From positions 1 to 41,439 of the forward strand of contig JAFLUD010000008.1 in the NCBI GenBank assembly GCA_022508965.1: a stretch of 41,439 bases of DNA, given 5' to 3'. Shown in pieces: positions 23,633-37,527 of the stretch (position 1 is its first letter; each line of letters starts with the position of its first letter). Origin of the DNA: Oscillospiraceae bacterium (GTDB lineage Bacteria; Bacillota; Clostridia; Oscillospirales; Ruminococcaceae). Position numbers and translations under genes: made by a program. The notes under the pieces are model-generated. The model saw only the letters and a program-made list of their open reading frames with translations, was not told the DNA's origin and made no database searches.

Positions 23633-23737
23633 TTCTTACTTCTAACCTCTTTTTCTCAAAAAAGTATTGCAAAATGATTTTAAATATGCTATAATATACT
23701 AGTAACTTTATAAATACTTCTAAAGGGGGTGTTCTCG

Positions 23738-23881
23738 TTGAAGCACATTGTTACCGTAAATAAGGCTGATCTTAAGGATTCCGCTGTGAAGGGCGGCTGC
23801 GGCAAGTGCCAGTCCTCCTGCCAGTCGGCTTGCAAGACTTCCTGCACGGTCGCTAACCAGAAGTGTGAGTCCGTAAAGTAA
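23738..23881 (+). CDS. SCIFF (six-cysteines-in-forty-five) ranthipeptide precursor
   Basis: TTG start with AAAGGGGG ribosome binding site: MKHIVTVNKADLKDSAVKGGCGKCQSSCQSACKTSCTVANQKCESVK, 47 aa with six Cys, immediately upstream of the SCIFF maturase. Below the ORF track size cutoff. Confidence 0.95.
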   Translation: MKHIVTVNKADLKDSAVKGGCGKCQSSCQSACKTSCTVANQKCESVK

Positions 23882-23917
23882 GGCAATATTATTGCCAAGT
23901 GCTTTCGGAAAACATTC

Positions 23918-23950
23918 GGGCGGGGTTTCTCGCCCTATTATTTTGATTTT
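23918..23950 (+). terminator. weak terminator/attenuator between SCIFF peptide and maturase
   Basis: GGGCG (23918-23922) / CGCCC (23931-23935) stem followed by TATTATTTTGATTTT; upstream hairpin GGCAAT/ATTGCC (23882-23896). Confidence 0.4.
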
Positions 23951-23961
23951 CAGAGGTTTTT

Positions 23962-25320
23962 ATGATCCATAAATTTAAGAAGCTGGGATATAATATAGTT
24001 CTCGACGCAAACAGCAACGCCGTTCACGTTCTGGACGACTGCGCGTTTGATATGCTGGATTTTGTGGAAGCGCCCATTCCGAAGGCTATGCCCGCGGAGC
24101 TTCCCCAGAAGCTCTCGCAATACCCCGAGATGAGCGTTCGCGAGACCTATTATGAGCTTTTGCAGCTTTATGAACACGGAATGCTCTTTTCCGAGGATAC
24201 GTTCTTGCAGTATTCTCATTCGGCGGTAAAAAGCCCCGTGAAGTCGATGTGCTTAAACGTTGCCCACGACTGCAATCTGCGCTGCGAATACTGCTTCGCG
24301 CAGACGGGAGATTTCGGCGGAGAGCGCGTTATCATGCCGCCCGAGGTTGGCAAAAAGGCTATTGATTTTCTTATTGAGAATTCGGGCGACCGCGAGAATT
24401 TAGAGCTGGATTTCTTCGGCGGCGAGCCGCTTATGGCGTGGGATACCGTTGTGGAGACGGTGAACTACGCGCGTTCTATAGAAAAGGAACACGGGAAGAA
24501 CTTCCGCTTTACCATCACCACCAACGGCGTTTTGCTGGACGACGAGAAGATCGGCTACATAAACCGCGAGATGAGCAATGTCGTGCTGTCGCTTGACGGC
24601 AGGCGCGAGGTCACCGACAGGATCCGCAAGACCTTAAACGATAAAAGCGTTTACGACGTTATCGTTCCCAAATTCCAAAGCCTGGTCGAAAACCGCGGCG
24701 TAAAGGACTATTATGTCCGCGCGACGTTCACAAAATATAATCTCGACTTCACCGAGGACGTTCTTCATTTGAGAGAACTCGGCTTCAAGCATCTTTCCGC
24801 AGAGCCTGTGGTTACCGACGAAAAGGAGCCTTACGCGCTCACCGAGGCGGATTATCCGAGAATTTTCGAGGAATACGACCGCCTTTGCGGGGTCATCGCA
24901 AACCGCACCGAAAATAAGTTCAATTTCTTCCATTTTATGATCGACTTAAACGAGGGTCCGTGCGCGATAAAGCGGCTTCGCGGCTGCGGCTGCGGAAACG
25001 ACTATGTAGCCGTCGATCCGCACGGCGACATCTACCCCTGCCACCAATTTGTGGGAATAGACAGGTGGAAAATGGGCAATCTTAATGATGGGACGTTCAA
25101 TGAAGCTATCAAAACCTACTTCTCCGAGACGCATCTCTATTCCAAGGACGGCTGCCGCGACTGCTGGGCTAAATTCTACTGCTCGGGCGGCTGCAACGCC
25201 AACAGCTTCATCTACGAGGGCGACTGCCGTCTGCCGCACAAATTCTCCTGCGAGCTTCAGCGCAAGCGCCTCGAATGCGCGCTTGCATTAGCCACCGATA
25301 AGGCGTTCAAGGATTTCTGA
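23962..25320 (+). CDS. thioether cross-link-forming SCIFF peptide maturase (radical SAM, SPASM)
   Basis: CLNVAHDCNLRCEYCFAQTGDFGGER CxxxCxxC radical SAM motif; C-terminal SPASM-type cysteines CAIKRLRGCGCGNDYVAVDPHGDIYPCHQFVG...CRDCWAKFYCSGGCNANS; adjacent to the SCIFF peptide. Confidence 0.96.
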   Translation: MIHKFKKLGYNIVLDANSNAVHVLDDCAFDMLDFVEAPIPKAMPAELPQKLSQYPEMSVRETYYELLQLYEHGMLFSEDTFLQYSHSAVKSPVKSMCLNVAHDCNLRCEYCFAQTGDFGGERVIMPPEVGKKAIDFLIENSGDRENLELDFFGGEPLMAWDTVVETVNYARSIEKEHGKNFRFTITTNGVLLDDEKIGYINREMSNVVLSLDGRREVTDRIRKTLNDKSVYDVIVPKFQSLVENRGVKDYYVRATFTKYNLDFTEDVLHLRELGFKHLSAEPVVTDEKEPYALTEADYPRIFEEYDRLCGVIANRTENKFNFFHFMIDLNEGPCAIKRLRGCGCGNDYVAVDPHGDIYPCHQFVGIDRWKMGNLNDGTFNEAIKTYFSETHLYSKDGCRDCWAKFYCSGGCNANSFIYEGDCRLPHKFSCELQRKRLECALALATDKAFKDF

Positions 25321-25468: not shown

Positions 25469-26803
25469 TTGGGAGGGTTATTCATGAACGAATATAATGA
25501 GTTTGAGAACATAAGCGCTTCCGAGGAGCAGACGGTCTCTTTGTCCGAGCCGCAGAAAAAGCCCCAAAAGCAGCGTAAGAGCTTCGCGGGCGTTAAGGTC
25601 GCGGCTCTGATACTGGCAGTGGTCATAGCGGGCGGCGGCGCAGGCTTTGGCAGCGCGTATTTTGCGGGAAGATCGCTCGGGATCAAAAATACGATCTCTG
25701 ACAGCAATACAGGCTACGGCGACGAGGATTCCCGGGTTGAATCGGGCGACAAGGACAAAGGCTCGGTTCCCACGCTCAGCGATCTTCAAAGCGGAGTAAA
25801 CGTGGGTGTTCAGCATATCGCAAGCGAAAACGTCGAGTACAATTCCGACGGCAGCTATAAATACACCCGCGATCTGGTAAGCGCTGTTCAGGACAGCATA
25901 GTCTACATCGAGGTATTCAAAAACTACCGCGGAGGCAAATCGCTTTACGGCACCGCAAGCGGCATTATTATCTCCAAGGACGGCTATATCGTTACCAACG
26001 ACCATGTTGTTGACGGCTGCGATTCGTACACAGTAAAGGTAAATTCCACCGACAGAGTAACCGGCTTGTCGGAATCGAAAACACACGACGCCAAGCTCCT
26101 CGGCACCGACAGCGAGACCGATCTCGCGGTTCTCAAAATAGAAGCGAACAACCTGCCCGCGGCAGTTCTCGGAGACTCCGACAAGCTGCGTCTGGGCGAC
26201 GACGTTATCGCTATCGGCAATCCTCTGGGACTTGAGACTTCCGTTTCAAAGGGAGTGGTTTCCGGACTTAACCGCCAGATCTCCGACAGCTCGCGCGGGC
26301 TTTCGTCTATACAGACCGACGCCGCTATCAACAGCGGAAACTCCGGCGGCGGACTGTTCAACGCCTACGGCGAGGTCGTGGGAGTTGTGAACCTGAAATA
26401 TGTTTCCGGCTATGCCGAAAGTCTCGGCTTCGCTATCACGATAAACGAGGCTAAGACGGTCATAAACGATCTTATCACGAAGGGCTATGTTTCGGGACGC
26501 GCGGTAATGGGTATCACCTACCTCAATATCACCGAGTCGATCGCCTCGTACAGAGGAATGACGGCAGGCTGGCAGGTAAGCAGCATAAACGATGATATGC
26601 CGGTAGCCAGAAGCGGTCTGGTGGTAGGCGATACCATTATCGAGATCGACGGAACGTCGGTGTTCGACAGCGATATTATGGAGGTATTCACCAAGAAAAG
26701 CCCCGGCGACACGGTTACTGTTACGGTTGTGAGAAACGATTCTCTCGGACGCAAGCGCAATGTAAAAATTGATATAGTGCTTTCGGAATCCAAGGGCAAC
26801 TAA
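25469..26803 (+). CDS. S1C family serine protease, HtrA/DegP-like, membrane anchored with PDZ domain
   Basis: TM segment VAALILAVVIAGGGAGFGSAYFAG; GIIISKDGYIVTNDHVV, SETDLAVLKI, AINSGNSGGGLFNAYGEVVGVV triad; C-terminal PDZ. Confidence 0.94.
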   Translation: MGGLFMNEYNEFENISASEEQTVSLSEPQKKPQKQRKSFAGVKVAALILAVVIAGGGAGFGSAYFAGRSLGIKNTISDSNTGYGDEDSRVESGDKDKGSVPTLSDLQSGVNVGVQHIASENVEYNSDGSYKYTRDLVSAVQDSIVYIEVFKNYRGGKSLYGTASGIIISKDGYIVTNDHVVDGCDSYTVKVNSTDRVTGLSESKTHDAKLLGTDSETDLAVLKIEANNLPAAVLGDSDKLRLGDDVIAIGNPLGLETSVSKGVVSGLNRQISDSSRGLSSIQTDAAINSGNSGGGLFNAYGEVVGVVNLKYVSGYAESLGFAITINEAKTVINDLITKGYVSGRAVMGITYLNITESIASYRGMTAGWQVSSINDDMPVARSGLVVGDTIIEIDGTSVFDSDIMEVFTKKSPGDTVTVTVVRNDSLGRKRNVKIDIVLSESKGN

Positions 26804-26883: not shown

Positions 26884-28491
26884 TTAGTTGAACTGTGTGG
26901 GTTTGTTGGAAGTAGGCGGTGTATTGGGAGCGGGCGGGGTGGTGTTCTTATCGGTCACAAGTCCCGAATCGGAGTTGATACCCGTGGCGATCGCTCTGCC
27001 CTGTACGAAGGAATTCACCATTTCCTTAAGGTCGATACCCAGACCCTCGAGAAGTCCCGAGGAGGCTTGGGTGGTGGCTTCGGTGATGTCCTTTACCAGC
27101 TTTGAGGTGTTGCCGTCGCCGTACATGGTGATCTTGTCGATGTTCTGGAGCGGACTTGCGATAGCCTCCGCAACAGCGGGCATCTGCTCGAAGTACATCT
27201 GGAGAACCGCTGCCTCTTCCATCTTCTTCATTGCCTCTGCCTTCTTGTCGAGACCTTCCGCCTCTGCAAGCGCCTTTGCGCGAACGGCTTCCGCTTCCGC
27301 AAGACCGCGCGCTCTGATACCCTCTGCCTCCTGCTCCGCCTTGAAGCGTGCAGCTTCCGCGCGTGCCTTTTCTGCGGCGGCTTCGTTCTCGGCTGTTACG
27401 AGAATAGCGGCTGCTTCGTTTTTCTTGATCTGCAGCTCCGCCTCGGAGTTCTGGATATCCTCATACTTCTTAGCCTCCGCGCTTCTCTGCGTGGTATACA
27501 GACGGGCGTCGGCGTTCTGCTGAGCCGCGTACTTCTGAGCCTCGGCGGTCTTCTTTACCTCGGCTTCGAGGGCGCGCTCTTTGATCTCGGCTTCCTTAGC
27601 CTTGATCTCGACTTCTTTTTCCTGCTTTGCGAGGTTTGCGTTTGCGGTCGTAATTTCGATCGTCTTACGCTGTTCTTCCTCTTGAATTCGGTAAGCCGCA
27701 TCAGCTTCCGCCTGCTTGATATCGGCGGCGCGCTTCAGCTCTGCCTGCTTGATGGCAAGCTCGTTCTGACGCTCCGCGATAGCCGTCTCGGAATCGACTC
27801 TCGCGTCGTTTGCCTTGCGGTTTGCCTCGGCTTGCGCGATCTTAATGTCGCGCTCGGCCTCCGCTTTGGAGATGGCTGCCTTTTTCTTTATCTGCATGGT
27901 GTTGTCGATACCCATGTCGTTGATGATCCCGTTGTCGTCAACGAAATTCTGGACGTTGAACGAAACGATCTCAAGTCCCATTGCGCGGAGATCAGGATCG
28001 GCGTTCTGCTTTACCTTATCCGCGAATGCCTGACGGTTGGAAACCATTTCCTCCAGCCGCATCTGACCAACTATCTCACGCATATTACCTTCCAATACCT
28101 CACGGGCAACCTGCGTGATGTAGGTTCCGTTGCGGTTGAGGAAGTTCTGCTGCGCACGGGCGATCGTGTCGGGATCGGGAGAGATCTTTACGTTTACCAC
28201 CGCGTCAACGTTGATGTTGATGTAGTCGCCGGTGGGAACGGGCTGCGCGGTCTTTACGTCAACCGACATCAGCGCCAGCTCCAGCGTATCGCAGCGCTCG
28301 AAGAACGGCAGCTTGATCGCCGCTTTTCCGATAACGACCTTCGCTTTTCTGCGAAGTCCGCTGATGATGAACGCCTTGTCGGGCGGAGCCTTGCGGTATC
28401 CCGCCGCGAACATAATAACAATAATTACGCAAACAATAATTATTGGGATCAAAAATCCCTTAGATTCCAAAAAGCTCAAACTCTCGGGCAT
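26884..28491 (-). CDS. flotillin family protein (SPFH domain)
   Basis: N-terminal TM, YRKAPPDKAFIISGLRRKAKVVIGKAAIKLPFFERCDTLELALMSVDVKT, long Ala/Glu coiled coil. ATG at 28491 preceded by AAAGGAG; ORF track start 28527 trimmed. Confidence 0.93.
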   Translation of the reverse strand: MPESLSFLESKGFLIPIIIVCVIIVIMFAAGYRKAPPDKAFIISGLRRKAKVVIGKAAIKLPFFERCDTLELALMSVDVKTAQPVPTGDYININVDAVVNVKISPDPDTIARAQQNFLNRNGTYITQVAREVLEGNMREIVGQMRLEEMVSNRQAFADKVKQNADPDLRAMGLEIVSFNVQNFVDDNGIINDMGIDNTMQIKKKAAISKAEAERDIKIAQAEANRKANDARVDSETAIAERQNELAIKQAELKRAADIKQAEADAAYRIQEEEQRKTIEITTANANLAKQEKEVEIKAKEAEIKERALEAEVKKTAEAQKYAAQQNADARLYTTQRSAEAKKYEDIQNSEAELQIKKNEAAAILVTAENEAAAEKARAEAARFKAEQEAEGIRARGLAEAEAVRAKALAEAEGLDKKAEAMKKMEEAAVLQMYFEQMPAVAEAIASPLQNIDKITMYGDGNTSKLVKDITEATTQASSGLLEGLGIDLKEMVNSFVQGRAIATGINSDSGLVTDKNTTPPAPNTPPTSNKPTQFN

Positions 28492-28708
28492 AATAAACTC
28501 CTTTCGGTATTGCCTATAGTTTCCCAATGCTAATTATATTGTATCATTTTCTAAAAATGCCGTCAAGATACGACAATCAAAATCGGCGTTTTGCACAAAA
28601 TCTCTCTTTGTTTTTTTCAAAGCGGAGAATATCTCGGTTCTTTCCAATTCCTCATATTTTTTGTAATAAATAACCAATAGAATGGAGAAAATTTGTGAAA
28701 TATCACTG

Positions 28709-28787: not shown

Positions 28788-29096
28788 ATGGATATTCTCA
28801 AGCGGATAATTACTATGGACAAGGCGGCGGCTTCGCGGGTTGCCGCGGCTGTTGAAAAGGAGCGCAAGCTGTCGGAGGAATCCGGCGAGCAGGCGGCTAA
28901 GGAAAGCGGGGAGATGATCTCCGAGGAGCGCAAAAAAATGCAGGCCGCGTGCGAAGAACAGCAGCAAAAGCTTGACCGTAAGCTGAAGGAGGCGGAGAAG
29001 ATCCGCGAGGAACGCTGCGCCGAGCTTGACGAGGTCTTCAACTCCAAGCGCGAGCAGTGGAAGTCCGAAATTTTAGACCGTATAACGGGGGTTTGA
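28788..29096 (+). CDS. V/A-type ATPase peripheral stalk subunit (G/H-like coiled coil)
   Basis: 102-aa charged coiled coil, first gene of the ATPase operon. Confidence 0.75.
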   Translation: MDILKRIITMDKAAASRVAAAVEKERKLSEESGEQAAKESGEMISEERKKMQAACEEQQQKLDRKLKEAEKIREERCAELDEVFNSKREQWKSEILDRITGV

Positions 29097-29097
29097 T

Positions 29098-30132
29098 ATG
29101 TCGTTTTCTTCCAATTCCGTTATCGCTAAGGCGAGAGCGGTTTTCGGGCGTTCGCTTACTGCCGAGGACTATGCGCGGCTTTCCTCAAAGGAATCCGTAG
29201 CCGACGTCTGCGCCGAGCTAAAGCGGCTTCCGCGCTATGAGAAGGCTCTCGCTTCCGCGAATCCGCAGACTATCTACCGAGGTCAGCTCGAGGGCTTGCT
29301 GCGGCGCGCGGTTTTCGATATTTTTGAGAGCTTCAGAAAATTTGATTTCACCGAAAGCAAAGGATTTTTTAAATATATCGTAATGCGGCTTGAGATCGAG
29401 CAGATACTGCTGGCGATCCAGAGCGTTGCGGGCGGCGCGTCGGACGCGTATATCGCGGCGCTTCCGATGTTTTTGACGGATTTTGCGCAGATAGACCTTA
29501 TGGCTCTGGGAAGATCGCGAAATCTGGTAGAGGCTTCCGAAATGCTCAGGGGCTCTGTTTATTCCAAGGCGATAGGAGAGCTGCTGGTGTCCGCCGTTGA
29601 AACGGGAAAGCTGGATATCGGCGAGTGCGAACGGCGGCTGTATACTCAGTATTATATGAGAATGCTCAAAGCCGTCGACAGCGAGTATAAGGGCTCCGAG
29701 CAAAAGGAATTAAGGCGGCTTATTCTCAGAAGCATTGATATGGAGAACGTGGTTACGCTGTATCGGTATTCGCGCATATTCAAAACGGATTCCGAAGAGC
29801 TTCCCGAAAAGCTGATCCACTTTAAGTACAGGCTTTCGGAGGAGGTAATCGAGCGGCTGGCGGGCTACGGCGACGCGGGAAAGATCGCCGCAGAGCTGTC
29901 GAAGCTCGGCTATCGGCTGGACAGCGAGCCGCCGAAGGACGTTGAGCTTTTGACCGAGCGTATCAGTCTCGATTTTCTGAAGAAAACGCTCAGGCTGTCG
30001 CGAAGCTCGTCGGTGGTGTATTTCGCGCTGACCGAGTGTCTGGAGATAGAGCTTAAAAATATTATAACCATTATCGAGGGAATACGCTACGGGCTTGAGG
30101 GCGCGGCTATCCTCGATATGCTGGTAACCTAG
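29098..30132 (+). CDS. V-type ATPase subunit C (AC39 family)
   Basis: Helical V-ATPase C/d subunit pattern (RLILRSIDMENVVTLYRYSRIFK) and operon position. Confidence 0.85.
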   Translation: MSFSSNSVIAKARAVFGRSLTAEDYARLSSKESVADVCAELKRLPRYEKALASANPQTIYRGQLEGLLRRAVFDIFESFRKFDFTESKGFFKYIVMRLEIEQILLAIQSVAGGASDAYIAALPMFLTDFAQIDLMALGRSRNLVEASEMLRGSVYSKAIGELLVSAVETGKLDIGECERRLYTQYYMRMLKAVDSEYKGSEQKELRRLILRSIDMENVVTLYRYSRIFKTDSEELPEKLIHFKYRLSEEVIERLAGYGDAGKIAAELSKLGYRLDSEPPKDVELLTERISLDFLKKTLRLSRSSSVVYFALTECLEIELKNIITIIEGIRYGLEGAAILDMLVT

Positions 30133-30147
30133 AAGGGTGGTGCGGAA

Positions 30148-32127
30148 ATGGGCATTGAAAAAATGTCGATGCTGTCGGCGGAGGGTCCCATCGGGCAGCT
30201 TGACGCCGCGCTTATCGCGTGCTGCGAGAGCGGACAGTTTCAGATCTCCTCGGGCGGAGCCGCTTTGAGCAATCCGGGCGAGCAGAATCCGTATTCGGGG
30301 ATCTACGCGAAGATACGCGATATGGCGGCTGACCTTAAGATCGAAGCGGAATACTGCGATTTTAAATACCTGCCTTATGAATCGACCGACGATTTTGAGC
30401 ATTATTTCGAGGATATAAGCCGCCGCTATGAGGAGCTTAACGAAAAGTACGACGAGGTAAAGCGCAGGCTTGAAGAGCATAAGAGCACCGAGTCTTATCT
30501 TGAGCACATGGTGGGAATGGACGTTTCCTTCCGCGATCTGTTCGCGATGAAGTACGTCAAGCTGCGTATAGGCAGGCTTCCGGCGGAAAACGAACGAAAG
30601 CTCGAATATTACGCCGAAAAATGCTTTGCGTTTATTCCATTTGAGAGAAGACCCGATTTCATCTACGGTATCTATCTTACTCCCACAAATCTTTCCGGAT
30701 TTGCGGACGAGGTAATGATATCGCTGGGCTTTGAGAGAACGAGGCTTCCCGATTATCTCCAGGAGGACCCCGAGACCGCCGAAAAGCGGCTTGCAGAGCA
30801 GGTCGCCAAGGAGGAAAAGGAAAAAGAGCATATCGAGCAGGAGCTTGCGTACCTTACCAACGATCTAAGCAGCGATTTCAGGGCGGTCATGTGCAAGCTG
30901 AAATACAAGTCAGACTGCTTTGAGCTTCGCAAGAAGGCGATCATTTCCGACGATCGGTTCTCTTTTTCGGGATATTGCCCGACAAGGGAGTGCAAGAAGC
31001 TGGAAACGGCGCTCGGAGCGATCTCCGAGAATATAAAATGCGTTGAAGTCCCCATCGACAAAAAGAATGCTCCCGCGGAGGTTCCCATAAAGCTCAAAAA
31101 CAATTTCATCACACGGCCGTTTGAGATGTTTGTGAAGATGTACGGGCTTCCGACCTACGGGGCGTTTGACCCCACGCCGTACGTCGCGTTCACTTATATG
31201 ATACTCTTCGGAGTGATGTTCGGAGACGTGGGTCAGGGATTTCTGGTGTTCCTGCTGGGGCTGCTGCTTACAAGGCTCACGAAAAACGGGCTTGCTCCCA
31301 TCATGGCAAGACTTGGGATATTCTCAATGGCGGGCGGCTGTATTTACGGCTCGGTATTCGGAATAGAAACGATAATAAAGCCCATTTATCACCGCGAAAA
31401 TATCTGGAAGGGCGTTTGTAAGATGTTCGGGAATCTGGGCGTTTCCGAGCACCCCGAGAGCATTTTCCAGGCGGCGACCGCGGTGTTGTTGTTCTCGCTG
31501 ATGATCGGCGTTATATTGATACTTATTTCGATGATATTCAATATGGTTCTGAATTTCCGAAACGGAAGGATCGGCGAGGGTCTGTTTGCGGTAAACGGCG
31601 CGGCGGGGATCGTGTTCTACGTTGCGCTGGTGGCGGGCGCCGCGGGACAGCTGATGTACGGTATCCCGTTATTCTCGGCGCCTTACGTCATCTGCCTGAT
31701 AGTGCTTCCGGTTGTGCTGATCTTCTTTAAAGAACCGCTGTCGAATCTCATTTCGGGGAAGCGTTCCGAAGAAAAACACAGCGTCGGAAATTTCATCATC
31801 GAGAACTTTATCGAGCTTTTCGAATCGGCGATCAGCTTCCTTTCCAACACGATGTCCTACCTCAGAGTGGGAGGCTTCGTTCTCTCGCACGCGGGCTTTA
31901 TGCTTGTAGTTTCCCAGCTTGCGGGAACGACCGATCCGTCGGCGCCCGTTACGGTAAAGACGGTCATCACCTATATTATCGGAAATATTCTGGTTATGGG
32001 AATAGAGGGTCTGCTGGTGGGAATTCAGGCGCTGCGTCTGGAATTTTACGAGATATTCAGCCGTTTCTACGACGGAAACGGAAAGAGCTTTACTCCGACC
32101 GGGGTAGACCTCAATTCAGAAAACTAA
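30148..32127 (+). CDS. V-type ATPase subunit I (116 kDa/a subunit family)
   Basis: PTYGAFDPTPYVAFTYMILFGVMFGDVGQGF, NTMSYLRVGGFVLSHAGFMLVV, GLLVGIQALRLEFYEIFSRFYDGNGKSFTP. Confidence 0.96.
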   Translation: MGIEKMSMLSAEGPIGQLDAALIACCESGQFQISSGGAALSNPGEQNPYSGIYAKIRDMAADLKIEAEYCDFKYLPYESTDDFEHYFEDISRRYEELNEKYDEVKRRLEEHKSTESYLEHMVGMDVSFRDLFAMKYVKLRIGRLPAENERKLEYYAEKCFAFIPFERRPDFIYGIYLTPTNLSGFADEVMISLGFERTRLPDYLQEDPETAEKRLAEQVAKEEKEKEHIEQELAYLTNDLSSDFRAVMCKLKYKSDCFELRKKAIISDDRFSFSGYCPTRECKKLETALGAISENIKCVEVPIDKKNAPAEVPIKLKNNFITRPFEMFVKMYGLPTYGAFDPTPYVAFTYMILFGVMFGDVGQGFLVFLLGLLLTRLTKNGLAPIMARLGIFSMAGGCIYGSVFGIETIIKPIYHRENIWKGVCKMFGNLGVSEHPESIFQAATAVLLFSLMIGVILILISMIFNMVLNFRNGRIGEGLFAVNGAAGIVFYVALVAGAAGQLMYGIPLFSAPYVICLIVLPVVLIFFKEPLSNLISGKRSEEKHSVGNFIIENFIELFESAISFLSNTMSYLRVGGFVLSHAGFMLVVSQLAGTTDPSAPVTVKTVITYIIGNILVMGIEGLLVGIQALRLEFYEIFSRFYDGNGKSFTPTGVDLNSEN

Positions 32128-32165
32128 ACTTTGAGCGTTGGTTGAACAAGCTCTGACTAATACTT

Positions 32166-32621
32166 TTGGAGGACAAAATTATGAATTACGCACTTATTTT
32201 CATTATGCCGCTGGCGGTTGTCGCGGCAATTATGCTCCCGCTTTTCGTGAGCCTCAAGAGGATCCACGATAAAAAGCCCGTAAACAGAAAGCGCGCGGTT
32301 ATCGCAAACGTTGTTTCGTTTTTCGGGGTAATGGCGGTCATGACAATGCTGCCTCTTACAGGGGCGTTCGCAGAGACTGCCGAAGCGGCTGAAGCGGCTT
32401 CCGGCGGACTCGCGGAGGGTCTGCGCTATATCGGCGCGGCGCTTTCTACCGGTCTTGGCACCATCGGCACGGGTATCGCGGTAGGCGGAGCGGCTCCCGC
32501 GGCTATCGGGGCGGTTTCCGAGAACGACAAGTCCTTCTCCAAGGCGCTTATCTTCGTAGCGCTCGGCGAGGGCGTCGCGATCTACGGACTGCTTATCTCC
32601 ATTCTGATCCTGTTCGGTTAA
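32166..32621 (+). CDS. V/A-type ATPase subunit K (c-ring proteolipid) with N-terminal extension
   Basis: C-terminal two-helix c subunit IGAALSTGLGTIGTGIAVGGAAPAAIGAV..LIFVALGEGVAIYGLLISILIL; ATG at 32181 after RBS GGAGG in the ORF track frame; additional N-terminal hydrophobic region. Confidence 0.9.
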   Translation: MEDKIMNYALIFIMPLAVVAAIMLPLFVSLKRIHDKKPVNRKRAVIANVVSFFGVMAVMTMLPLTGAFAETAEAAEAASGGLAEGLRYIGAALSTGLGTIGTGIAVGGAAPAAIGAVSENDKSFSKALIFVALGEGVAIYGLLISILILFG

Positions 32622-32628
32622 TGTTCCC

Positions 32629-32937
32629 ATGAAGTTTTATGTTATTTGTGACAAGGTAGACGTTTTGCTCGGAATGAGAATAGCGGGCATCGAGGGGCAG
32701 CTTATCGTCGATGAGAAAGAGGCTGCGCCGACGCTTGAGAGAATTTCTCAAAACGAGGAGATCGCGGTGGTTTTGATCACCGAAAGGCTCGCAGAGCTAT
32801 GCCGCGAAAAGGTCTACGATATCAAGCTCAACCGTATGCGCCCGCTGATCGTTGAGATACCCAACCGCGACGGCTCGGGCGGCGGCATGGGCGCTATCAG
32901 CCGCTATGTCGAGGAGGCTATCGGTATCAAGCTGTAA
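32629..32937 (+). CDS. V-type ATPase subunit F
   Basis: VDVLLGMRIAGIEGQLIVDEKEAAPTLERISQNEEIAVVLITERLAELCREKV and operon context. Confidence 0.88.
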   Translation: MKFYVICDKVDVLLGMRIAGIEGQLIVDEKEAAPTLERISQNEEIAVVLITERLAELCREKVYDIKLNRMRPLIVEIPNRDGSGGGMGAISRYVEEAIGIKL

Positions 32938-32964
32938 GGCTTATTAAGGAATGAGGGAATTGCT

Positions 32965-33549
32965 ATGGATTTAAGGGCTGTAAACGCCTCTAAGCTGAAA
33001 ATGTTCAGAGCGGCTATCGAAAAGCAGGCGACCGACGAGATAGCCGAGGCTTCCAAAAATATCCGCGAAAAGAAAAGCGCCGCGGGAAAGGCTCGCGCGG
33101 AGCTTGCCGTGAGAGAGGAGCTTTCTCGGATAAGAGCGGAGCAAAGCTCTGCCGAGGCGAAATTCAAAAAAGAATTCTCGCGCTGCGATTTTGAGATCGA
33201 AAGAGCTGTGCGTATCCACAGAAAAGAGCTTATCGAGGGATTTTTCGGGGAGATCGAGGGCGAGCTGCAAAAATTCGCGGATTCGGCGAAGTATGACGAT
33301 CACCTGAAGAGCTGCATTAAAAAAGCCGAAAACGAGCTTGGAGATAGCTGCGTATTTCTGGCGTGTCCGAGGGATATGGAAAAGCTTCGGACGCTTACGA
33401 AAAAAGAGATTCGCGCGGACAATTCCATTAAGCTCGGCGGGATCTGCGCGATTGACGAGGAAAAGGGCTTGTTTGCCGATTATACGCTCGACAAGGCTCT
33501 CGAGAACGAAAAAAGCGCGTTTTCAAACCACGCGGAGCTAAGGCTCTAG
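32965..33549 (+). CDS. V-type ATPase subunit E
   Basis: Coiled-coil N-terminus plus E-subunit-like C-terminus (LGGICAIDEEKGLFADYTLDKALE) and operon context. Confidence 0.85.
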   Translation: MDLRAVNASKLKMFRAAIEKQATDEIAEASKNIREKKSAAGKARAELAVREELSRIRAEQSSAEAKFKKEFSRCDFEIERAVRIHRKELIEGFFGEIEGELQKFADSAKYDDHLKSCIKKAENELGDSCVFLACPRDMEKLRTLTKKEIRADNSIKLGGICAIDEEKGLFADYTLDKALENEKSAFSNHAELRL

Positions 33550-33585
33550 GGCAATACACTCGCAATCTTTGTGCGGTGTTGCCCT
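33548..33585. repeat. short inverted-repeat element, likely MITE remnant
   Basis: TAGGGCAA..TTGCCCTA termini; CTTTGTGCGGTGTTGCC (33567-33583) is the reverse complement of 41374-41390 with 16/17 identity. Confidence 0.65.
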
Positions 33586-33613
33586 AACTCCCTATGAAAG
33601 GAAGAAGCTATTT

Positions 33614-35365
33614 GTGAATAACACGATTTATTCTATAAACGGACCCGTTGTTAAGGCGGAGAAAACGCGCGACTTCTCTATGCTGGAGATGGTTTATGTC
33701 GGCGAGAAAAAGCTCATCGGCGAGGTCATCGGAGTTACCGACGAGTTTACGACTATTCAGGTATACGAGAACACCGGCGGACTTAAGGTCGGCGAGCCGA
33801 TCATTCCCACGGGCGCTCCCGTATGCGCGAATCTCGGTCCCGGGATAATCTCCAACATCTTCGACGGAATAGAACGTCCGCTGCGCGATATGACTAAGCT
33901 CAACGGCGCGTTTGTCGCGGAGGGAAACAATCTGTTCTCGCTGGACACTGAGAAGAAGTACGACGTTACCGTTACCGTAAAGACGGGCGACAGGCTCACC
34001 GGCGGACAGATCTACTGCACCTGCCCCGAGACCGCGCTTATCACGCATAAGTGTATGGTTCCCCCGAACCTTTCGGGAGAGGTGGTATTCGCTGCCGAGA
34101 ACGGGCAGTATACGGTCAACGATACGATAATCAGGCTCAAGACCGACGACGGCACGGAAATTCCCCTTACAATGGTTCAAAAGTGGCCGATAAAGCGCAG
34201 CCGCCCCATTGCTAAGCGACTTCCGATAAACCGTCCGCTTATCACGGGACAGCGCATTATCGACACGATAATCCCCATTGCCAAGGGCGGCGCAGCGGCT
34301 ATCCCGGGCGGCTTCGGCACGGGCAAGACCATGACCCAGCACCAGCTTGCGAAGTGGTGCGACGCGGATATCATCGTGTATATCGGCTGCGGCGAGCGCG
34401 GAAACGAGATGACGCAGGTTCTGGAGGAATTTTCCGAGCTTATCGACCCCAAATCCAACCGACCGCTGACCGACAGAACTGTGCTTATCGCGAACACCTC
34501 GAATATGCCCGTGGCAGCGCGCGAGGCGAGCATTTACACGGGAATAACGCTTGCGGAATACTACCGCGATATGGGTTATCATATAGCTATTATGGCGGAT
34601 TCCACGTCGCGCTGGGCGGAGGCTCTGCGCGAGATATCGGGACGTCTTGAGGAAATGCCCGCGGAAGAGGGCTTCCCGGCATATCTGCCGAGCCGTCTGT
34701 CAGAATTCTACGAGCGTGCGGGCTACGCCGAGAACTTAAACGGCACCGAGGGCTCTGTTACCATCATCGGAGCGGTGTCGCCTCAAGGGTCGGATTTCTC
34801 CGAGCCGGTAACGCAGAACACAAAGCGTTTTGTGCGCTGCTTCTGGGCGCTGGATAAGTCGCTGGCTTACGCGCGTCACTATCCCGCTATCGACTGGAAC
34901 AGCAGCTATTCCGAATATATTGAGGATCTGGCGGACTATTACAACGAAAATGTGGCTCCCGATTTTATGGCGCTGAGACAGGAGATCGCAAATATTCTCC
35001 AAGAGGAAAATAAGCTGATGGAGATAGTAAAGCTCATCGGCGCGGACGTTCTCCCGGACGATCAGAAGCTCGCCATCGAGACCGCGCGAGTGGTTCGCGT
35101 GGGATTTTTGCAGCAGAACGCCTATCACAAGGACGACACCTATGTTCCTCTGGAAAAGCAGAGGCTTATGATGAAGGTAATCTCGCAGCTTTATGAGAAG
35201 TCGCTGGCGGCGCTGAGGCTGGGAGTTACGCTGTCGGATATCCTGGGCACGGGACTGTTCGACAGAGCGGTAAAGCTGAAATACGATATTCCCAACGACG
35301 AGCTGCACGAGTTTGATAACTTCCTGGCTGAGATAGACTCGCAGATCGACGGCTTGACCGCGTAA
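33614..35365 (+). CDS. V-type ATPase catalytic subunit A
   Basis: Likely GTG start at 33614 after [29 protein letters not shown]-loop, [56 protein letters not shown] track start 33569 lies in the repeat. Confidence 0.96.
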
Positions 35366-35376
35366 GGAGGGCATTT

Positions 35377-36771
35377 ATGAGTTTGCAGTATATAGGTCTT
35401 AAAGACATAAACGGCCCTCTGGTAGCTCTCGAAGGAGTTTCGGGCGCGGCTTACGACGAGATCGCCGAGATCCGTCTCGACAACGGCACGACGCGCATCG
35501 GACGCGTGGTGGAGCTTGACGGCGACAGGGTCATTTTGCAGGTTTTTGAAGGAACCAACGGCATTTCTCTGAAAAACACCAGAACGATTTTTTCGGGAAG
35601 ACCGCTTGAGATCCCGCTTGCCGAGGAAATGCTCGGGCGCGTGTTCAACGGCGCGGGCAAGCCCATAGACGGCTTGGGCGCGGTGTTCCCCGAGAAAATG
35701 GGCGACGTAAACGGACAGTCGCTGAACCCTGTGGCAAGGCAGTATCCGCGTAACTATATCCACACGGGAATTTCCTCTATCGACGCGCTGATGACGCTGA
35801 TAAGAGGTCAGAAGCTGCCGATCTTCTCCGGCTCGGGACTTTCCCACAACAAATTGGCTGTGCAGATAGTAAAGCAGGCAAAGCTCTCGGGCGAGAACAG
35901 CGGGGACTTCGCTATCGTTTTCGCGGCAATGGGCGTTCAGAACGACGTCGCGGACTACTTCCGCCGTTCGTTTGTGGAAACGGGCGCTATCGAGCGCGTA
36001 TGTATGTTCTTAAATCTTTCCAGCGACCCGATCATCGAGCGATTGCTCACTCCGCTTTGCGCGCTTACGGCTGCGGAATATCTCGCGTATGAGAAGAATA
36101 TGCACATTCTCGTTATCATGACGGATATGACCTCCTATGCGGAGGCGCTGCGCGAGTTTTCGTCCTCAAAGGGCGAGATTCCCGGGCGCAAAGGCTATCC
36201 GGGTTATCTGTACTCCAACCTCGCTTCGCTTTACGAGCGCGCGGGAGTTGTCGAGGGCAGCACGGGTTCGGTAACGCAGATCCCCATTCTCACAATGCCC
36301 AACGACGATATCACGCACCCTATCCCCGACCTTACGGCGTATATCACCGAGGGGCAGATAGTTTTTGACAGAGAGCTTGACCAGAAGGGAATTTACCCCG
36401 GACTTTCGGTATTGCTGTCGCTGTCGCGTCTGATGAAGGACGGCATCGGCGAGGGCTACACGAGGGCGGATCACGCGGCGGTATCCAATCAGTTGTTCGC
36501 GGCGTATGCGAGAGTTCAGGACGCGCGTTCGCTGGCGTCGGTAATCGGCGAGGAGGAGCTTTCGGAGAACGACCGCGCTTATATGCGCTTCGGCGTGCTG
36601 TTTGAGGAGAATTTTCTCAAGCAGGGCTTCGACGAAAACCGTTCCATCGACGAGACGCTTGATCTGGGCTGGGATCTGCTGTGCGTGCTTCCCAAGAGCG
36701 AGCTTGACAGAATAGACGAGAAGCTGTTGGAGGAGAAATACGATCCCGAAAGAGCGGAGAGATTCGCGTAA
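35377..36771 (+). CDS. V-type ATPase subunit B
   Basis: [88 protein letters not shown]. Confidence 0.96.
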
Positions 36772-36903
36772 TACTTTTTTACAAATAAATTTTCGAGGGA
36801 ATTTTGTCGAGAACAGGAAAAAAAGCCGCAGGAATATACGGATATTTCAAGGTTTTTTGACGCAGTTATCGGCAAAATTTACCGAAAAAAAGGCGGTGAG
36901 GTT

Positions 36904-37527
36904 TTGGCTGAACAGATTTTCCCCACAAAAGGAAATTTAATAAAGGCAAAGCGTCAGCTCGCTCAGGCGAATATGGGCTATGAGCTGATGGACAGAAAAC
37001 GCAACATTCTCGTGCGGGAAATGGTGTCTCTGGTGGAGGAGGCAAAGGGGCTTCGCACCAGCATCGAGATCACCTACGCCGAGGCTTATCAGGCGCTCGA
37101 GCAAGCCAATACCACTCTCGGACTTGTAAGCGCGATCTCGCGAACCATTCCCGTGGACAACTCGCTTAAGCTGTCGGTAAGGAGCGTTATGGGCGTGGAG
37201 CTGCCGTCGGTTTCCGCCGAGATCCCGCCGATAACCGAGCCGGTTTATCCGATGAGCCTTACCAACATCGCGTTCGACAACGCGTATATCTGCTTTAACA
37301 AGGTAAAGGAGCTTACCGTGAGGCTGGCGGAGGTAGAAAACTGCATTTACCGCCTGGCGGTCGCGATAAAGAAGACCCAAAAGCGCGCGAACGCTCTGAA
37401 GAACATCATGATCCCGAAATTCCAGTCGCGGGTACGGTTTATTTCCGGCGCGCTGGAGGAAAAGGAGCGCGAGGAGTTCTCACGGCAAAAGGTGATCAAG
37501 GCAACGAAGATCCGTAAATCCAAGTAA
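36904..37527 (+). CDS. V-type ATPase subunit D
   Basis: FPTKGNLIKAKRQLAQANMGYELMDRKRNILVREMVSLV; ALKNIMIPKFQSRVRFISGALEEKEREEFSRQKVIK. TTG start. Confidence 0.95.
   Translation: MAEQIFPTKGNLIKAKRQLAQANMGYELMDRKRNILVREMVSLVEEAKGLRTSIEITYAEAYQALEQANTTLGLVSAISRTIPVDNSLKLSVRSVMGVELPSVSAEIPPITEPVYPMSLTNIAFDNAYICFNKVKELTVRLAEVENCIYRLAVAIKKTQKRANALKNIMIPKFQSRVRFISGALEEKEREEFSRQKVIKATKIRKSK

Follow-up and report, generated by a model that had tools for sequence, protein, structure and literature searches.

A predicted SCIFF ranthipeptide locus with a TTG-initiated precursor in an Oscillospiraceae genome

The window analyzed here is a stretch of 41,439 nucleotides from an Oscillospiraceae genome (contig JAFLUD010000008.1). 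The short cysteine-rich gene scfA, preceded by a promoter and a ribosome-binding site, is followed by a predicted hairpin, the radical SAM/SPASM gene scfB and a gene for an HtrA-like protease (Table 1). The original prediction had read the short gene as a 47-residue SCIFF precursor that starts with TTG behind a strong ribosome-binding site, carries six cysteines in a CxxCxxxCxxxCxxxCx6C layout and lies just upstream of its radical SAM/SPASM maturase. This description was found to be correct. Translation from the TTG to the stop codon yields exactly the predicted residues, the cysteines are C21, C24, C28, C32, C36 and C43, and scfB begins 80 bp 3' of scfA on the same strand.

Table 1. Features of the scfA-scfB locus, in positions of the window.
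Feature	Position	Strand	Basis
scfA promoter, TTGCAA - 17 nt - TATAAT, TG before -10	23667..23695	+	consensus scan; genus alignment
scfA ribosome-binding site AAAGGGGG	23722..23729	+	sequence; alignment
scfA, SCIFF ranthipeptide precursor, 47 aa, TTG start	23738..23881	+	TIGR03973, PF13165
Terminator-like hairpin GGGCGGG-GTTT-CTCGCCC, then TATTATTTT	23918..23935	+	sequence prediction
scfB, SCIFF maturase ScfB, radical SAM/SPASM, 452 aa	23962..25320	+	TIGR03974, PF04055, PF13186, CteB 5WGG
HtrA-like trypsin/PDZ protease, N-terminal hydrophobic stretch	25484..26803	+	PF13365/PF13180; TIGR02037 below cut-off

The scfA peptide is recognized by both SCIFF precursor models. It scores 79.6 bits against the NCBIfam equivalog model TIGR03973 (E=1.2e-22, model positions 1-43 of 43, curated cut-off 50 bits) and 80.7 bits against the Pfam model PF13165 (cut-off 27 bits). 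The six cysteines are contained within about 45 residues, and their spacing is identical in the 121 peptides that were compared. Residues 1-20 match the leader region of CteA and residues 21-47 make up the Cys-rich core, with a presumed boundary between them. When the core (G19-C43) was compared to 27 genus relatives, 206 synonymous and 6 non-synonymous codon differences were counted; at the codon level, the core is under strong purifying selection. A search of the source genome revealed one SCIFF and one ScfB, and no second SCIFF. The default 60-residue minimum in ORF calling would drop a gene of this length, and it has indeed been published that SCIFF peptides are readily overlooked in annotation through their small size, as had also been predicted here (PMC5300114).

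The ScfB protein reaches 671.7 bits against the SCIFF maturase model TIGR03974 (E=5.1e-202, cut-off 425 bits). Since this score and that of the precursor both exceed their curated cut-offs with such E-values, the scfA reading frame is not a product of chance. ScfB carries both PF04055 and PF13186, the radical SAM motif CxxxCxxC is formed by C104, C108 and C111, and the cysteines of the SPASM region are found at 334-430. The only other match to TIGR03974 in the source genome is a distant radical SAM protein at a contig end (L032, G000:C3:255-1211), which scores 54 bits and thus stays far below the cut-off.

Between the two genes, a GC-rich hairpin and its T-rich tail occupy positions 23918-23944. 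An equivalent hairpin was detected in 71 of 80 loci, compared to 2.8 expected from dinucleotide-preserving shuffles; its position is conserved while its sequence diverges across the loci. Partial termination at this predicted element is quite probable. In other peptide natural-product operons, partial termination is known to leave the precursor in excess of the enzyme. These counts are evidence that SCIFF loci in this part of the Clostridia are generally built with a hairpin between precursor and maturase. The window was also scanned for Rfam families and tRNAs; neither scan gave a hit, and thus the scfA-scfB locus shows no known riboswitch.

The closest solved structure to ScfB is CteB, the maturase of thermocellin from Clostridium thermocellum (PDB 5WGG, 5WHY). 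The homology extends over the full length (547 bits, E=2e-163), and the radical SAM and SPASM cysteines of CteB are retained. The CteA leader was co-crystallized with CteB (5WGG), and residues 1-21 of the scfA peptide align to it without a gap, so that the numbering of Cys32, Thr34 and Thr37 is shared. In contrast to CteA/CteB, the source genus possesses a fixed TTG start and a gene neighborhood unlike that of most other families examined. Tte1186a and Tte1186 from Caldanaerobacter subterraneus represent the same precursor class and enzyme family according to the literature (PMC8326336, PMC8172795). The cross-link of Tte1186a was mapped between Cys32 and Thr37. PapB from Paenibacillus polymyxa (freyrasin) is, like ScfB, a ranthipeptide maturase, yet ScfB reaches just 272 bits against the PapB model (cut-off 340). 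The six links of its substrate PapA join Cys to Asp in a Cys-X3-Asp motif (PMC8172795), whereas the scfA core contains no Asp. As for the physiological role, in C. beijerinckii sporulation and quorum-sensing gene expression change when the pair is disrupted (Chen et al. 2020, cited in PMC8102284).

By its sequence, the locus is almost certainly an ordinary, functional SCIFF ranthipeptide locus. The conserved promoter would drive scfA, and most transcripts would probably stop at the hairpin behind it, yielding more precursor than enzyme. ScfB may then bind the leader (MKHIVTVNKADLKDSAVKGG) via an N-terminal recognition domain, after which its radical SAM cluster would abstract a hydrogen from the side chain of a threonine. 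By analogy to CteA/CteB, Cys32 would be joined to this threonine in a non-alpha thioether, and the scfA product would be a ranthipeptide. The SCIFF family, its pairing with a maturase and the ease with which SCIFF is missed have all been published (PMC5300114; see also PMC7738495), and scfA-scfB extends a widespread family by one further genome. The side results on the hairpin, on Thr34 and on HtrA may be new, but not with certainty, as open-access literature only was searched.

The threonine that accepts Cys32 is a matter of disagreement (PMC8326336; PMC8172795). As reviewed in PMC8326336, two in vitro studies mapped the link to Thr37 (Bruender 2016, Grove 2017), first in Tte1186a and CteA, while Hudson 2019 placed it at Thr34, via the gamma-carbon, in E. 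coli cells. A targeted search of the open-access literature returned, on this point, only reviews that leave the choice undecided. The source peptide contains both threonines. In the 121 full peptides, some species being counted twice, Thr34 is invariant and Thr37 is replaced by Gly in three. A pattern search across the class, with positions 33, 34 and 37 left free, listed 149 genuine matches and one chance match. Among the genuine matches listed, Thr34 is present in 149/149, Thr37 in 135/149 and Gly37 in 14/149, the latter distributed over at least six families (f29, f32, f63, f85, f98 and f102). Further Gly37 genomes are G045, G055 and G056, whose ScfB proteins outscore those of all other relatives; the enzyme beside such peptides is thus intact.

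Because Thr34 never changes and Thr37 is sometimes Gly, Thr34 is the better candidate and most likely the true acceptor of Cys32. A link to Thr37, despite the two in vitro studies, appears rather unlikely for this peptide. Invariance alone is no proof: Lys33 shows the same invariance yet is not an acceptor, and the constancy of Thr34 could reflect recognition instead. Conservation nevertheless offers a testable evolutionary answer to the published disagreement, and the natural Gly37 variants provide ready-made test substrates.

Downstream of scfB, the HtrA-like protease is the most conserved neighbor in the genus. In 30 of 36 genus genomes, and likewise in about 15 loci from further afield, its gene follows scfB on the same strand. 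The hydrophobic N-terminal stretch of the protease presumably acts as membrane anchor. The junction between scfB and HtrA is also better conserved than two comparison junctions in the genus, namely that of RsmE near scfAB on the upstream side (5/13) and that of flotillin beside HtrA (1/19). From this arrangement, a three-gene unit of precursor, maturase and protease could be proposed, in which HtrA cleaves, trims or clears the exported SCIFF product outside the cell. Such a pathway is nonetheless improbable. HtrA homologues occur in genomes without SCIFF, which means that the protease is not dedicated to this pathway, and other families of the order do not have them next to ScfB. Between 156 and 1744 bp separate scfB from the HtrA-like gene, and the latter may have its own promoter. 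Moreover, the sampled species are not independent, and the order could simply have been inherited; shared ancestry of the gene order is the default explanation of the neighborhood. A targeted search of the open-access literature yielded no paper devoted to a link of HtrA with SCIFF loci, nor one devoted to a terminator between precursor and maturase in SCIFF loci.

The membrane protein TIGR04086 was considered as an export partner. Several other families have its gene immediately before SCIFF, and in more distant named loci YajC and Tgt lie close to it. The source genome encodes it away from the locus (G000:C76), and genomes without SCIFF as well as Bacillus subtilis possess it too; linkage therefore gives no support for an export role here. 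Further along the window, a flotillin-like SPFH protein is encoded on the reverse strand (26884-28527). It displays 81-91% identity in genus relatives, two of which (G009 and G019) carry in-frame TAA codons in this gene, and a search of other families in the order found none above the threshold. A V-type ATPase cluster (H-like, C, I, E-like, A, B and D subunits) follows on the forward strand (28788-37527).

The start codon of scfA was assessed by alignment. The TTG is fixed in 27/27 genus loci, where it stands behind a conserved promoter (TTGaAA-17-aTaTGnTATAaT among the aligned relatives) and a conserved ribosome-binding site (AAAGAGGTG against the 27 genus relatives, AAAGAGGT(G) in most of them). 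In the source genome, the Shine-Dalgarno sequence with two further letters, AAAGGGGG(TG), spans 23722-23731. Outside the genus, 33 loci carry ATG where the TTG stands; for 16 others, the register used falls a few codons within an earlier start. A mechanical ORF caller selects GTG 23729 instead, which shares the scfA frame in this genome and most relatives and would add three residues to give a 50-residue precursor. Initiation at this codon is very improbable. The GTG lies within or beside the ribosome-binding site, and the stretch that it would add before the TTG varies freely among the relatives. Where the genus has TTG, other groups mostly have an ATG start, and this is also where the CteA leader begins. 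In one relative (L076), the spacer is 1 nt longer and the GTG is out of frame. Because the GTG overlaps the ribosome-binding site and loses its frame in this relative, the TTG is the better start and, on the alignment, the real one.

The pairing of precursor and enzyme was followed through 61 genomes, consisting of the source genome and 60 relatives. ScfB was found in 52/61 and SCIFF in 51/61, while nine genomes contain neither gene. Only G019 has ScfB alone; there, ScfB starts 41 bases into its contig, so that its SCIFF would fall off the contig end. In G003, each of two contigs holds a partial SCIFF match, and one of these matches runs to the end of its contig. Contig breaks thus explain both ScfB genomes without an intact SCIFF. 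SCIFF is also located upstream of ScfB in 79/79 named relatives with sequence at that position. This named set consists of gut genomes from uncultured Oscillospiraceae/Ruminococcaceae, and its counts are not independent of those above because the two sets overlap. With both models exceeded and no clear exception across the 61 genomes, the predicted precursor-enzyme pairing is well supported at the sequence level. The broader claim that such pairs are near-universal in Clostridia was roughly right: among 392 genomes sampled from the class, 323 contain the SCIFF-core DNA pattern, although some families are without it.

The prospect that the Cys-rich frame is a chance ORF or degenerate remnant beside an orphan maturase acting elsewhere is negligible, for although ScfB also scores 527.7 bits against the 'not_ScfB' exception model NF040492 (ScfB-related orphan maturase), this is below the cut-off of 855 whereas TIGR03974 is passed, the peptide satisfies the equivalog model and accompanies ScfB in all relatives that could be resolved, and the model scores together with the 206:6 substitution ratio already refute it. 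Elsewhere in the sample, four genomes (G049, G219, G347 and G381) display two SCIFF pattern matches each, and in L163 (G064:C84:13977-14137) one reading frame contains two complete tandem SCIFF units, each with six Cys and Gly37.
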